DNA from: Clostridia bacterium
GTDB taxonomy: Bacteria; Bacillota; Clostridia; Oscillospirales; CAG-272
DNA length: 60,196 nt
Direction of reading: 5' to 3'
NCBI GenBank assembly: GCA_017461475.1
Contig: JAFTXX010000037.1
Location: forward strand, 1-60,196
Part shown: positions 44,650 to 46,474 of the stretch, piece by piece
Position numbering within the stretch: position 1 is the stretch's first letter
Layout of the letters: each line of letters opens with the position of its first letter
Notes under the pieces: model-generated
The model's input: only the letters and a program-made list of their open reading frames with translations
Told to the model about the DNA's origin: nothing
Databases searched by the model: none
Translations under genes and position numbers: made by a program

Positions 44650-45017
44650 GGGGGCGTAAAGGTTTCGACGGGGATTTTGAGGTACGATAAGCGGGTAGAG
44701 GTTGGAACACCTCTTTAATAAGTTCTACTTTTAAATTTAGACGCTAACGAAAACGTAGCTCTGGCAGCGTAAGCTGTGCTGCCGCCAATAGCGCGGCCCG
44801 TCGAACCGAGGAGTACCACGGCCTGGGATTCGGCGTCACTCAGTGGTAAATGTGCACCGCCCGTTAGCTTTTGAAGCGGTCATAAATAAAAAAGCTACCA
44901 AACCGTTACCCCCGTTCACCGGAGTACGGCGCGGGAAATAATAAAGGTGTCCTGCACCCGGAGAAAGTTGTATCAAGAGGTTTTCGGACGGGGGTTCGAT
45001 TCCCCCCGCCTCCACCA
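44650..45017 (+). ncRNA. ssrA: Transfer-messenger RNA (tmRNA)
   Basis: 368 nt. The 5' end GGGGGCGTAAAGGTTTCGAC and 3' end GGTTCGATTCC...GCCTCCACCA form the tRNA-Ala-like half, with the CCA encoded. The tag frame is at 44743-44772: GCT AAC GAA AAC GTA GCT CTG GCA GCG TAA, giving ANENVALAA, close to tags in other Firmicutes. It rescues stalled ribosomes with SmpB and marks products for ClpXP. The 3' half is a known integration target for phages and islands, and accessory DNA begins right after it. Confidence 0.97.
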
Positions 45018-45202: not shown

Positions 45203-45300
45203 GTAATCGTTTTTTTATCGTAGTAATCGTTTTTTTATGGGTGTAATCGTTTTTTTATCAATTACTAATCGTTTTTTTATCACAGTAACCGTTTTTTTAT
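45203..45300 (+). repeat. Five phased direct repeats with seven-T tracts
   Basis: Units GTAATCGTTTTTTTAT at 45203-45218, 45223-45238 and 45243-45258 are identical. 45265-45280 differs by one base (C for G) and 45285-45300 by one (C for T). A degenerate sixth unit is at about 45303-45314. The period is 20, 20, 22, 20 bp, close to two helical turns. The array lies between the tmRNA/terminators and the stop of the small leftward gene. Possible roles are integrase arm sites, regulator sites or a DNA bend. Confidence 0.9.
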
Positions 45301-45311
45301 GGGTTCATTTT

Positions 45312-45491
45312 TTAATTACTACCGAACTTTCTGTCGAGCAATTCTTTGATTTCCCTTCTCTGCTCGTCGGTCGGTTCAAGCACCTCAATGTCCATAGCTT
45401 CAATTTCGGCAATTTCACGATTGGCAGCTTCGGTGAAGGCGGCCTTTAAAAACTCCTCTTCCGTCATTTTGCTAAAGTCACGCTCTTTCAT
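45312..45491 (-). CDS. Small acidic protein of unknown function
   Basis: 59 residues: MKERDFSKMTEEEFLKAAFT then a Glu/Ala-rich helical stretch (EAANREIAEIEAMDIEVLEP) and EIKELLDRKFGSN. It is predicted entirely helical, with no membrane segment or known motif. The start overlaps the end of the upstream gene by 14 nt, so translation is probably coupled. It is the last gene before the T-tract repeats. A DNA-mimic or antitoxin-like role would be guesswork. Confidence 0.65.
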   Translation of the reverse strand: MKERDFSKMTEEEFLKAAFTEAANREIAEIEAMDIEVLEPTDEQRREIKELLDRKFGSN

Positions 45492-45729
45492 CGCCGAGCA
45501 CTTCCTTTACCACTTTTGCAAATAATTGAGAATCAATAATCTCTTGCTTAAGTTCCTGCCATTCTTCTTCATCGCTCCTCAAAACGCATTCAATAAAATA
45601 ATCACAATTATCACAACAGCATTCAATACCTTCGTGTTCGCCATTACCGAGACATTTTTCAAAAGAACCTGGTGTAAGCGGTGTTCCGGTAACATCAATT
45701 ATTTCATTCTCTTCATTTAATATATCCAT
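45478..45729 (-). CDS. Small Cys-rich acidic protein of unknown function
   Basis: 83 residues. MDILNEENEIIDVTGTPLTPGSFEKCLGNG is followed by IECCCDNCDYFIECVL: Cys-rich, with a CCxxC-type pattern suited to a zinc or other metal site, then an acidic helix. Start 45729 has GGAGG 11 nt upstream. The gene is expressed from the promoter at 45905-45933 behind a structured leader and an intrinsic terminator, so its expression needs antitermination or read-through. No family recognised. Confidence 0.7.
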   Translation of the reverse strand: MDILNEENEIIDVTGTPLTPGSFEKCLGNGEHEGIECCCDNCDYFIECVLRSDEEEWQELKQEIIDSQLFAKVVKEVLGDERA

Positions 45730-45741
45730 GCTACTCCCTCC

Positions 45742-45898
45742 AAAATAAAAAAGGTGCACCCACAAGGAGTGCACCGAAAAAGGAAGCCCTCCTTGATTGC
45801 TGCCACGCAATTGAACTACTCATAGGAATAGCGAAAAGAGGGACCACCTTTTTACCAAAGGATGGTTCCTATGAGCATTAAATATTCAATTACGTGGC
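45742..45898 (-). ncRNA. Unassigned structured RNA leader with an intrinsic terminator
   Basis: Minus strand; the predicted transcription start is about 45898. P1: 45885-45898 with 45802-45815, 13 of 14 pairs. P2: 45867-45875 with 45819-45827. P3 directly stacked on it: 45843-45851 with 45857-45866, one bulge. Unpaired GAGGG/CCCTC (45838-45842 with 45787-45791) could make a pseudoknot. The terminator stem GGTGCAC/GTGCACC spans 45753-45775 with a T-rich run after it. CTCCTTG in the terminator loop region is complementary to CAAGGAG at 45789-45795. It does not match tmRNA, 6S, T-box or other RNA that I know. Confidence 0.7.
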
Positions 45899-45904
45899 AA
45901 GGTT

Positions 45905-45933
45905 ATTATATCAAACTTTGCCATCGTTTGCAA
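45905..45933 (-). promoter_or_regulatory. Sigma-A promoter of the structured leader
   Basis: Minus strand: -35 TTGCAA (45928-45933), 17 bp spacer, -10 TATAAT (45905-45910). The predicted start coincides with the first base pair of stem P1. Confidence 0.82.
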
Positions 45934-45955
45934 GGAAAATAAACAAGACTAAAAG

Positions 45956-45994
45956 AAAAAACTCTAACAGCTTTATACAACCGTTAGAGTTTTT
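45956..45994. terminator. Bidirectional intrinsic terminator
   Basis: AAAAACTCTAAC (45957-45968) and GTTAGAGTTTTT (45983-45994) form a 12 bp stem with a 14 nt loop. T tracts are present on both strands. It overlaps the stop codon of the small gene at 45984. Confidence 0.88.
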
Positions 45995-46202
45995 CACCAA
46001 TATTATTATTTTCCAAATATCTGCCCAGTCTTATACAACCTTCAATACGCTCTATTGCCTCCGCCTCAGTTAACCGTTTCTTTTCCGGCACATGCATAAC
46101 CATCTCACCGGTGGAACTGTCATAGATCATATAATGCCAATTATAACTCGTTTGACGCAGGCAGTACCCTTTGTGATTATACTCATAGATTTTATCTTTC
46201 AT
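45984..46202 (-). CDS. Small conserved-looking element protein
   Basis: 72 residues: KIYEYNHKGYCLRQTSYNWHYMIYDSSTGEMVMHVPEKKRLTEAEAIERIEGCIRLGRYL. The beta-rich first half and helical second half suggest a small folded cytoplasmic domain. Start 46202 has AAGGAAAG upstream; the longer frame to 46292 crosses the promoter. Expressed alone from the promoter at 46237-46265. No family recognised. Confidence 0.65.
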   Translation of the reverse strand: MKDKIYEYNHKGYCLRQTSYNWHYMIYDSSTGEMVMHVPEKKRLTEAEAIERIEGCIRLGRYLENNNIGEKL

Positions 46203-46236
46203 TTGCTTTCCTTGCCACCTTTCATTTATCAACAAA

Positions 46237-46265
46237 ATTATAGCATATTTCTTCTGATATTGCAA
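46237..46265 (-). promoter_or_regulatory. Sigma-A promoter for the small leftward gene
   Basis: Minus strand: -35 TTGCAA (46260-46265), 17 bp spacer, -10 TATAAT (46237-46242). About 35 nt before the start codon. Confidence 0.75.
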
Positions 46266-46368
46266 TGGAAATAAAAAGGCATAGAAAGGCATAAAAAGTC
46301 ACACAAATTCATTGAAAGTCATTTCAAGTTTAAGTTAACATTATCCTGGATAGATTGCAAAAACTAAC

Positions 46369-46386
46369 CACGCAAAACTTTTCGTG
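46369..46386. promoter_or_regulatory. Candidate operator upstream of the lexA-like gene
   Basis: CACG(C)AAAA C TTTTCGTG forms an imperfect dyad 9 bp before the -35 box of the lexA-like gene. It is a plausible site for the LexA-like or XRE regulator of the element. Sequence further upstream has degenerate AAGGCATA and AAAGTCA repeats (46277-46322). Confidence 0.45.
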
Positions 46387-46395
46387 TTTTACCTA

Positions 46396-46424
46396 TTGAC
46401 AAACCCGAATGCGTAGTTTATAAT
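46396..46424 (+). promoter_or_regulatory. Sigma-A promoter of the SOS cassette
   Basis: -35 TTGACA (46396-46401), 17 bp spacer, -10 TATAAT (46419-46424). Start near 46431, 44 nt before the gene, with GAGGTG before the ATG. Both boxes are perfect, so repression is expected to be the control. Confidence 0.85.
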
Positions 46425-46474
46425 AATTCTTGCAAATGGGATATATCTCCCGTTTAAGAAATGAGGTGCTTTCG

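Follow-up and report, generated by a model that had tools for sequence, protein, structure and literature searches.

A probable portable cis-acting transcription attenuator of gut Clostridia, riboswitch-like and without a match in Rfam

The window analysed here (the whole stretch of DNA, 60,196 nucleotides long) contains a tmRNA at 44650-45017, with the tag ANENVALAA, and just beyond it a 157-nt leader RNA on the minus strand, with its 5' end at 45898 and its 3' end at 45742. Behind the RNA lie the gene for an 83-aa Cys-rich protein, without a match in Pfam, PHROGs, PADLOC or NCBIfam, and a 59-aa ORF, without a match in Pfam or NCBIfam. PHROG matches among the genes beside the element include a repressor/UmuD-like protein, two DNA polymerases (one of which we take to be of the Y family), a helicase, a primase and an HNH protein; given these neighbours and its place beyond the tmRNA, the element is probably part of a prophage. 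The phage-like genes found past the tmRNA 3' end (45018 onward) suggest that integration occurred there. As to a second prophage end, the assembly, about 76% complete, holds a single copy of the tmRNA 3' end. Shortly past this end, at positions 45204-45300, a 15-base repeat, TAA(T/C)CGTTTTTTTAT, occurs in five nearly identical copies spaced by about 20 bases, which are possibly binding sites of the element's integrase or of a regulator. The features of the leader RNA and its genes are listed below, with the evidence for each in parentheses.

45928-45933, minus strand: -35 box, TTGCAA (sequence; among 55 dissimilar copies, T at -35 in 100% and at -34 in 95%)
45905-45910, minus strand: -10 box, TATAAT, 6 nt ahead of the first base of P1 (sequence; exact spacing in 46 of 55 copies; at least 5 of 6 matches in 78 of 84 model hits)
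45742-45898, minus strand: leader RNA, from the presumed transcription start to the end of the U-tract (fold z -8.0; 107.6 bits with covariance model R1, the window copy being among its 78 training rows)
45885-45898, minus strand: P1, 5' strand (covarying pairs)
45802-45815, minus strand: P1, 3' strand (covarying pairs)
45866-45875, minus strand: P2, 5' strand (10 perfect pairs; own-partner z -23.4 over 78 short copies)
45819-45828, minus strand: P2, 3' strand (10 perfect pairs; own-partner z -23.4 over 78 short copies)
45857-45866, minus strand: strand A, 5' side of P3 (A:B own-partner z -13.8)
45835-45853, minus strand: strand B, candidate partner of A (P3) or of C (pseudoknot) (A:B z -13.8, B:C z -12.4)
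45777-45795, minus strand: strand C, candidate partner of B (pseudoknot) or of D (antiterminator) (B:C and C:D own-partner tests)
45763-45775, minus strand: strand D, terminator 5' arm and loop, candidate partner of C in the antiterminator (S:D z -12.7, C:D z -14.0)
45742-45775, minus strand: intrinsic terminator with U-tract (sequence; conserved pairs in 84 hits)
45478-45729, minus strand: gene for the 83-aa Cys-rich protein (translation; 19-row family alignment; RNA linkage in 23 of 27 family loci)
45312-45491, minus strand: 59-aa ORF overlapping the end of the Cys-rich gene, probably a second gene of the operon (translation)

Relatives of the RNA were collected in steps. A DNA search at E 0.01 yielded matches in 65 of 395 family genomes, the window's genome included. 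A pattern derived from these matches retrieved 23 stretches in viral contigs and at least 117 in genome contigs with titles mostly of gut Clostridia and Oscillospiraceae MAGs; a minority of the pattern matches (Odoribacter, Vibrio and others) are chance matches. Among the pattern matches listed, 168 were reduced to 138 by a filter, and 134 of these could be framed; after three with a poor P1 were dropped, the set comprised 122 distinct copies, 78 of them short (141-189 nt) and 44 long (203-241 nt). Covariance model R1 was built from the 78 short copies. By this model, the genome of the window contains four copies. At E 0.001, 87 of 146 family genomes have hits, as many as 14 in one genome, and at E 0.0001 at least 67 of 245 class genomes do, the window's genome being counted both times; the class-genome counts are lower bounds because 11 candidates per genome were scored. 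In a phylum sample, which doubles as a specificity control (among the 21 rows listed, 17 share no more than the phylum with the window), R1 at E 0.00001 matched 1 of 149, the window's own genome only. One copy (L160), behind which the rule used here recognizes no ORF inside 80 nt, is found in a record titled Pseudoflavonifractor sp. MSJ-30, which carries no MAG label. In the long copies (L146, L162 and others), an extra hairpin and a U-run stand between P1 and P2, terminator- or pause-like by eye.

When the whole window was compared to Rfam 15 at the gathering score, only the tmRNA was recovered. A lax search of 45400-46450 had a best E value of 0.95 (19.3 bits against a threshold of 46), which is chance level, and on 15 other loci with relatives only Clostridiales-1 was recognized, elsewhere in one contig. 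Thus, in agreement with the earlier note, a model's reading of the letters, which knew of no family for this RNA, membership of a known RNA family was rejected for want of an Rfam match. The Clostridiales-1 RNA (RF01699) lies at 12294-12461 of L035, in the same viral contig as one copy of the element. Kinship between the two was rejected: both are structured RNAs of Clostridia, but Clostridiales-1 is a separate element about 4 kb away, differing in sequence and structure. The literature search, which included the accessible portions of PMC11109978, PMC8632094 and PMC2965389, brought up no description of the element; an unnamed entry may exist in the supplements of PMC8040213, where, according to the part of that paper available, 3161 candidate RNAs from human microbiomes are placed. 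Altogether, these data describe a large, widespread RNA class of gut Clostridia that is apparently without a name.

The earlier note had recognized a structured RNA at this locus, an observation that holds, although it gave no strand and mixed letters of the two. The minus-strand fold has an energy of -66.5 kcal/mol (z -8.0) and the plus-strand fold one of -52.9 (z -6.0); with either strand, none of 200 shuffles was equally stable. Most of the details that had been noticed were recovered on the minus strand. The perfect -10 and near-consensus -35 boxes, with a start at the first pair of P1, correspond to TTGCAA, 17 nt, TATAAT and 6 nt, so that +1 would be the first G of P1. Control placements of TATAAT gave 7 and 3 among the 84 model hits, as opposed to 78 at the right place, and the geometry of the predicted promoter is fixed relative to P1 across copies. 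P1, described as having 13 of 14 pairs, comprises by hand count 13 Watson-Crick pairs and one G-U, to which the computed fold adds one more; P2, for which nine or ten pairs had been proposed, has 10 perfect pairs, and P3 forms in the predicted fold of this copy a hairpin with the loop GGUAA and bulges. The terminator placed just before the Cys-rich gene is a 9-pair hairpin followed by a U-tract (45752-45742), 12 nt containing GGAGGG, and the ATG at 45729. It appears formed in the nested minimum-energy fold of the window copy, and in the 84 hits nine of its 10 modelled pairs are standard in 98.6-100% of lettered cells, the innermost one in 78 of 84. The proposed pseudoknot needed correction in one respect: the pairing of CCCUC with GAGGG is found, but within a longer B:C helix of some 14-17 pairs (-20.2 kcal/mol), not as a 5-pair contact. 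The second proposed contact, between CAAGGAG (45795-45789) and CUCCUUG (45769-45763), is likewise found and overlaps this helix.

Chance tests were carried out on the window copy alone. Shuffled partners were never as good as the real ones for P1, A:B and B:C (0 of 500 each), and were so in 21 of 500 cases for the antiterminator; strands taken from other copies, 120 per helix, did as well in 0 (P1), 0 (A:B), 5 (B:C) and 4 (antiterminator) cases. P2 as cut for this test fared poorly (80 of 500 shuffles and 28 of 120 foreign partners as good), because the cut omits most of its 5' strand in the window; the case for P2 in this copy is its 10 perfect pairs. The comparison of predicted pairings across copies gives stronger evidence than these single-copy tests.

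In the comparative assay, here called the own-partner test, the duplex energies of each copy's own strands were set against those of strands swapped between copies, with 121 copies and with S denoting strand C minus its U-tract. Permutations of this kind keep shared ancestry in, and pairs of strands that are unpaired in the model served as a safeguard. In the 78 short copies, z values were -21.9 for P1, -23.4 for P2, -13.8 for A:B, -12.4 for B:C and -12.7 for S:D, compared to +2.5, -2.1 and -2.0 for the controls A:S, A:D and B:D. The corresponding values in the 43 long copies were -16.1, -14.6, -7.8, -6.8 and -3.4, with controls at +0.3, 0.0 and 0.0. Covariation in P1, P2 and the pseudoknot had been named as the support to look for. 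Across the 55 dissimilar copies, P1 is 97% paired (78% with shuffled partners), with double changes in 10 of its 12 pairs, and B:C is 89% paired (74% with shuffled partners), with double changes in 8 of 14; for P2, own-partner energies lie far from the permuted ones. Because this first set had been chosen by a sequence pattern, the test was redone on the 84 model hits (some of them training copies), with z values of -11.3 for B:C and -14.0 for C:D. The best partner of C in these hits begins at 0.48 of the internal region (median; interquartile range 0.46-0.49). P3 (A:B), B:C and C:D thus share strands, each pairing better with its own partner than with a swapped one and the controls hardly doing so, as would be expected of the choice first suggested between pseudoknot plus terminator and antiterminator. 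The own-partner tests on C:D and B:C support the presence of a mutually exclusive antiterminator, as far as can be judged from sequence comparison, with weaker values in long copies.

A second run of five U residues is present on the 5' side of strand B in 40 of the 55 dissimilar copies (10.9 expected) and on the 3' side in none of the 55. No triple helix involving this tract is claimed, because the tract is absent in the window copy and is partly explained by A:B pairing.

Energies were also computed for the competing folds. When folded before the terminator 3' arm emerges, the antiterminator hairpin has a mean energy of -13.9 kcal/mol (-10.0 with a foreign C), the value for the terminator being -16.9. 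Five or more C:D pairs are predicted to form with the copy's own C in 120 of 121 cases, but a foreign C still gives them in 96%; with the whole 3' domain present, C:D is preferred in only 35 of 121. Summed without a pseudoknot penalty, A:B plus C:D amounts to -27.8 and B:C plus terminator to -32.6 in short copies, compared to -19.8 and -35.7 in long ones, where A:B is weak (-6.7). By this model, little energy separates the two states in short copies, and more does in long ones.

Comparison of copies shows, as predicted features, a conserved promoter, the helices P1 and P2, the competing pairings A:B, B:C and C:D, a terminator and a location ahead of ORFs. We think it probable that the element is a portable, cis-acting and riboswitch-like transcription attenuator, belonging to a class for which Rfam gave no match. 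Transcription would begin at the first base of P1, and P1 and P2 would fold so as to frame the three switching strands. In one state, B would pair with A in hairpin P3 and leave C free for D, the resulting antiterminator blocking the terminator and allowing the gene to be transcribed. In the other, B would pair with C across P1/P2 to form the pseudoknot, D would pair with the terminator 3' arm, and transcription would end before the gene. The RNA may alternate between these states in the cell, with one of them favoured by a signal that could be a small molecule, an ion, a protein or another RNA. Several results weigh against this reading: the terminator is formed in the nested fold of the window copy, where 21 of 500 shuffles equal the antiterminator pairing; A:B and S:D are weak in long copies; a foreign C mostly pairs with D as well, and C:D is seldom preferred once the whole 3' domain is present; 39 of 122 copies have no suitable ORF close behind them, and the upstream members of one tandem array have no complete gene; and conserved unpaired bases are few. 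Since the switching strands carry matched changes, the mechanism is readily testable.

In attenuators of the trp type, which are controlled through a leader peptide, successive strands ahead of the terminator can pair in turn as 1:2, 2:3 or 3:4. The leader RNA likewise chains alternative pairings before a terminator; unlike them, it shows nothing that points to a leader peptide, since ORFs with a ribosome site occur in 14 of 55 copies as against 16.4 in shuffles. A leader peptide was rejected on this ground and because just 10 of 55 copies have an ATG in frame with the loop's UGG-UAA. In the fluoride riboswitch of the transcription type (RF01734), pseudoknot and terminating stem are two alternatives, as stated in the available part of PMC13273304. 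The two systems resemble each other in that shared strands govern pseudoknot and terminator, and covariation for the competing folds is reported in the same part of that paper; however, in the leader RNA the pseudoknot would accompany the terminator, the antiterminator being the alternative, and no Rfam model, that of the fluoride riboswitch included, matches it.

One rival of this reading concerns the nature of the signal. Conserved unpaired bases in the 84 hits are few (mainly AUA after the P1 5' strand, CAA after P1, AAAA in B and UUUUU in C), fewer than expected of a pocket for a small molecule. This scarcity, and a loop containing UGG that is common among copies, would suit a leader that answers to a dedicated regulatory protein or to another RNA instead of a metabolite, a reading that differs from ours in the type of signal only and that we consider rather unlikely. 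In the 84 model hits, UUGGU is found in 53, UUGGUAAAA in 43 and UUUUUCGGUGC in 33; the counts for UUGGU and UUGGUAAAA argue against that reading, as does the finding that the T-box covariance model has no match in the window, in the lax search of 45400-46450 or at the 15 other loci. An invariant UUGGU loop acting as a tRNA sensor was weakened as a candidate by the counts for UUGGUAAAA and UUUUUCGGUGC. The conservation of UUGGU in the first set is discounted because it was produced by the search pattern itself.

The attenuator reading also draws on the position of the RNA. In 83 of 122 copies, the first U of the terminator lies no more than 45 nt from the start of an ORF with a ribosome site; 2600 places drawn at random from these loci have such a start in 9.2% of cases, and the 84 model hits have one in 55. 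An intrinsic terminator lies between promoter and ORF, as judged from sequence and position. ORF starts cluster 20-29 nt past the first U (62 of 122 copies). Such regularity speaks against a stand-alone, trans-acting small RNA whose own promoter and terminator would leave the genes behind it to leaky read-through, and so does the recurrence of one gene family behind the RNA in 23 of 27 loci; in addition, an antiterminator backed by own-partner pairing would presumably be useless to such an RNA. In its favour, the element is a complete promoter-terminator unit, each of eight downstream tandem neighbours has a promoter of its own, and 39 of 122 copies are without a suitable ORF inside 45 nt. On this evidence, we regard the small RNA as improbable.

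The gene family in question is that of the Cys-rich protein. Its profile (19 rows, all from genes behind the RNA) has matches in 19 of 118 genomes. Conserved linkage to this gene, which had been proposed as a further point to check, was found with the RNA directly upstream in 23 of the 27 family loci examined (two of the 23 with weak partial scores), a figure to be read as an upper estimate because the profile derives from RNA-linked genes and the 27 include some of those and the window. One viral contig codes for a Cys-rich relative without the RNA. The suggested tie between RNA and Cys-rich gene is therefore seen, but is not specific: the 100 proteins encoded downstream form 50 clusters, and in 40 of these there is a single protein (some ORFs being cut by contig ends or doubtful), whereas the largest, with 20 proteins, contains the Cys-rich family. 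As the RNA precedes such diverse genes, its signal is unlikely to be read from the Cys-rich protein alone. Among 44 downstream representatives scanned, no Pfam family matches more than two; one downstream family is presumably SLOG, with a sub-threshold Pfam match. Lipoprotein-like starts are enriched downstream (31 of 142, compared to 55 of 840, using a simple regular expression and a rough ORF background).

A position before genes of a coherent pathway, a usual though not required feature of riboswitches, was thus not seen in these 50 clusters; this and the few conserved unpaired bases work against a classical metabolite riboswitch. Riboswitches for second messengers respond to a general signal and occur in many copies before diverse genes. 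By analogy, the diversity of genes and the copy number of the leader RNA would fit a general signal.

The RNA appears to change company readily. Pairs of RNAs at least 90% identical have neither flank in common in 23 of 53 cases and both in 11, and where each has a gene, the gene families differ in 16 of 31. Likewise, 11 of 17 RNA lineages (85% identity) precede at least two gene families, a few on doubtful ORFs, and in 176 of 294 pairs with 80% identity or more, homology stops no more than 80 nt out on both sides, the breaks being frequent around -36 or -15 to -19 and at the terminator. These figures would also suit a remnant or part of a mobile element whose terminator fell before cellular genes by chance (mobile attenuators are described in the accessible part of PMC2965389), yet double changes keep P1 and B:C among dissimilar copies, which is not expected of a dead remnant, and we give this explanation very little credence. 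Queried with the window RNA, named phages and plasmids returned MT837627 (70.6% identity, E 0.05), which carries a copy by the pattern; two 22-base plasmid matches look like chance, and a second copy used as query had no match at E 0.001.

Carried further, the attenuator reading leads to a more ambitious proposal, which we consider possible but less likely than not: promoter, two-state RNA and terminator may be transferred together from one accessory gene to another, unrelated one in much of the class Clostridia. A new class of riboswitch would then subject many lipoprotein genes, along with Cys-rich and hypothetical ones (at least one of them probably on a prophage), to a single cellular signal. 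Found in at least 67 of 245 sampled class genomes, often in several copies, the RNA class would give poorly studied gut bacteria a further regulon of considerable size; the shared signal could hint at what dozens of lipoproteins and small Cys-rich proteins do, and near-identical switches at unrelated genes bear on how new genes gain regulation.

Riboswitches of the c-di-GMP-I class are known in many copies ahead of diverse genes. The leader RNA resembles them in preceding diverse genes and in occurring in tandem, an arrangement documented for riboswitches in the available part of PMC9481103; unlike them, it matches no Rfam riboswitch model, and in its tandem rows all eight of the downstream copies carry a promoter of their own. 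One such row lies at 900-3157 of L015, where four copies follow each other at intervals of about 250 bases. The beginning of the Cys-rich gene recurs between these copies, and those upstream in the array lack a complete gene of their own.
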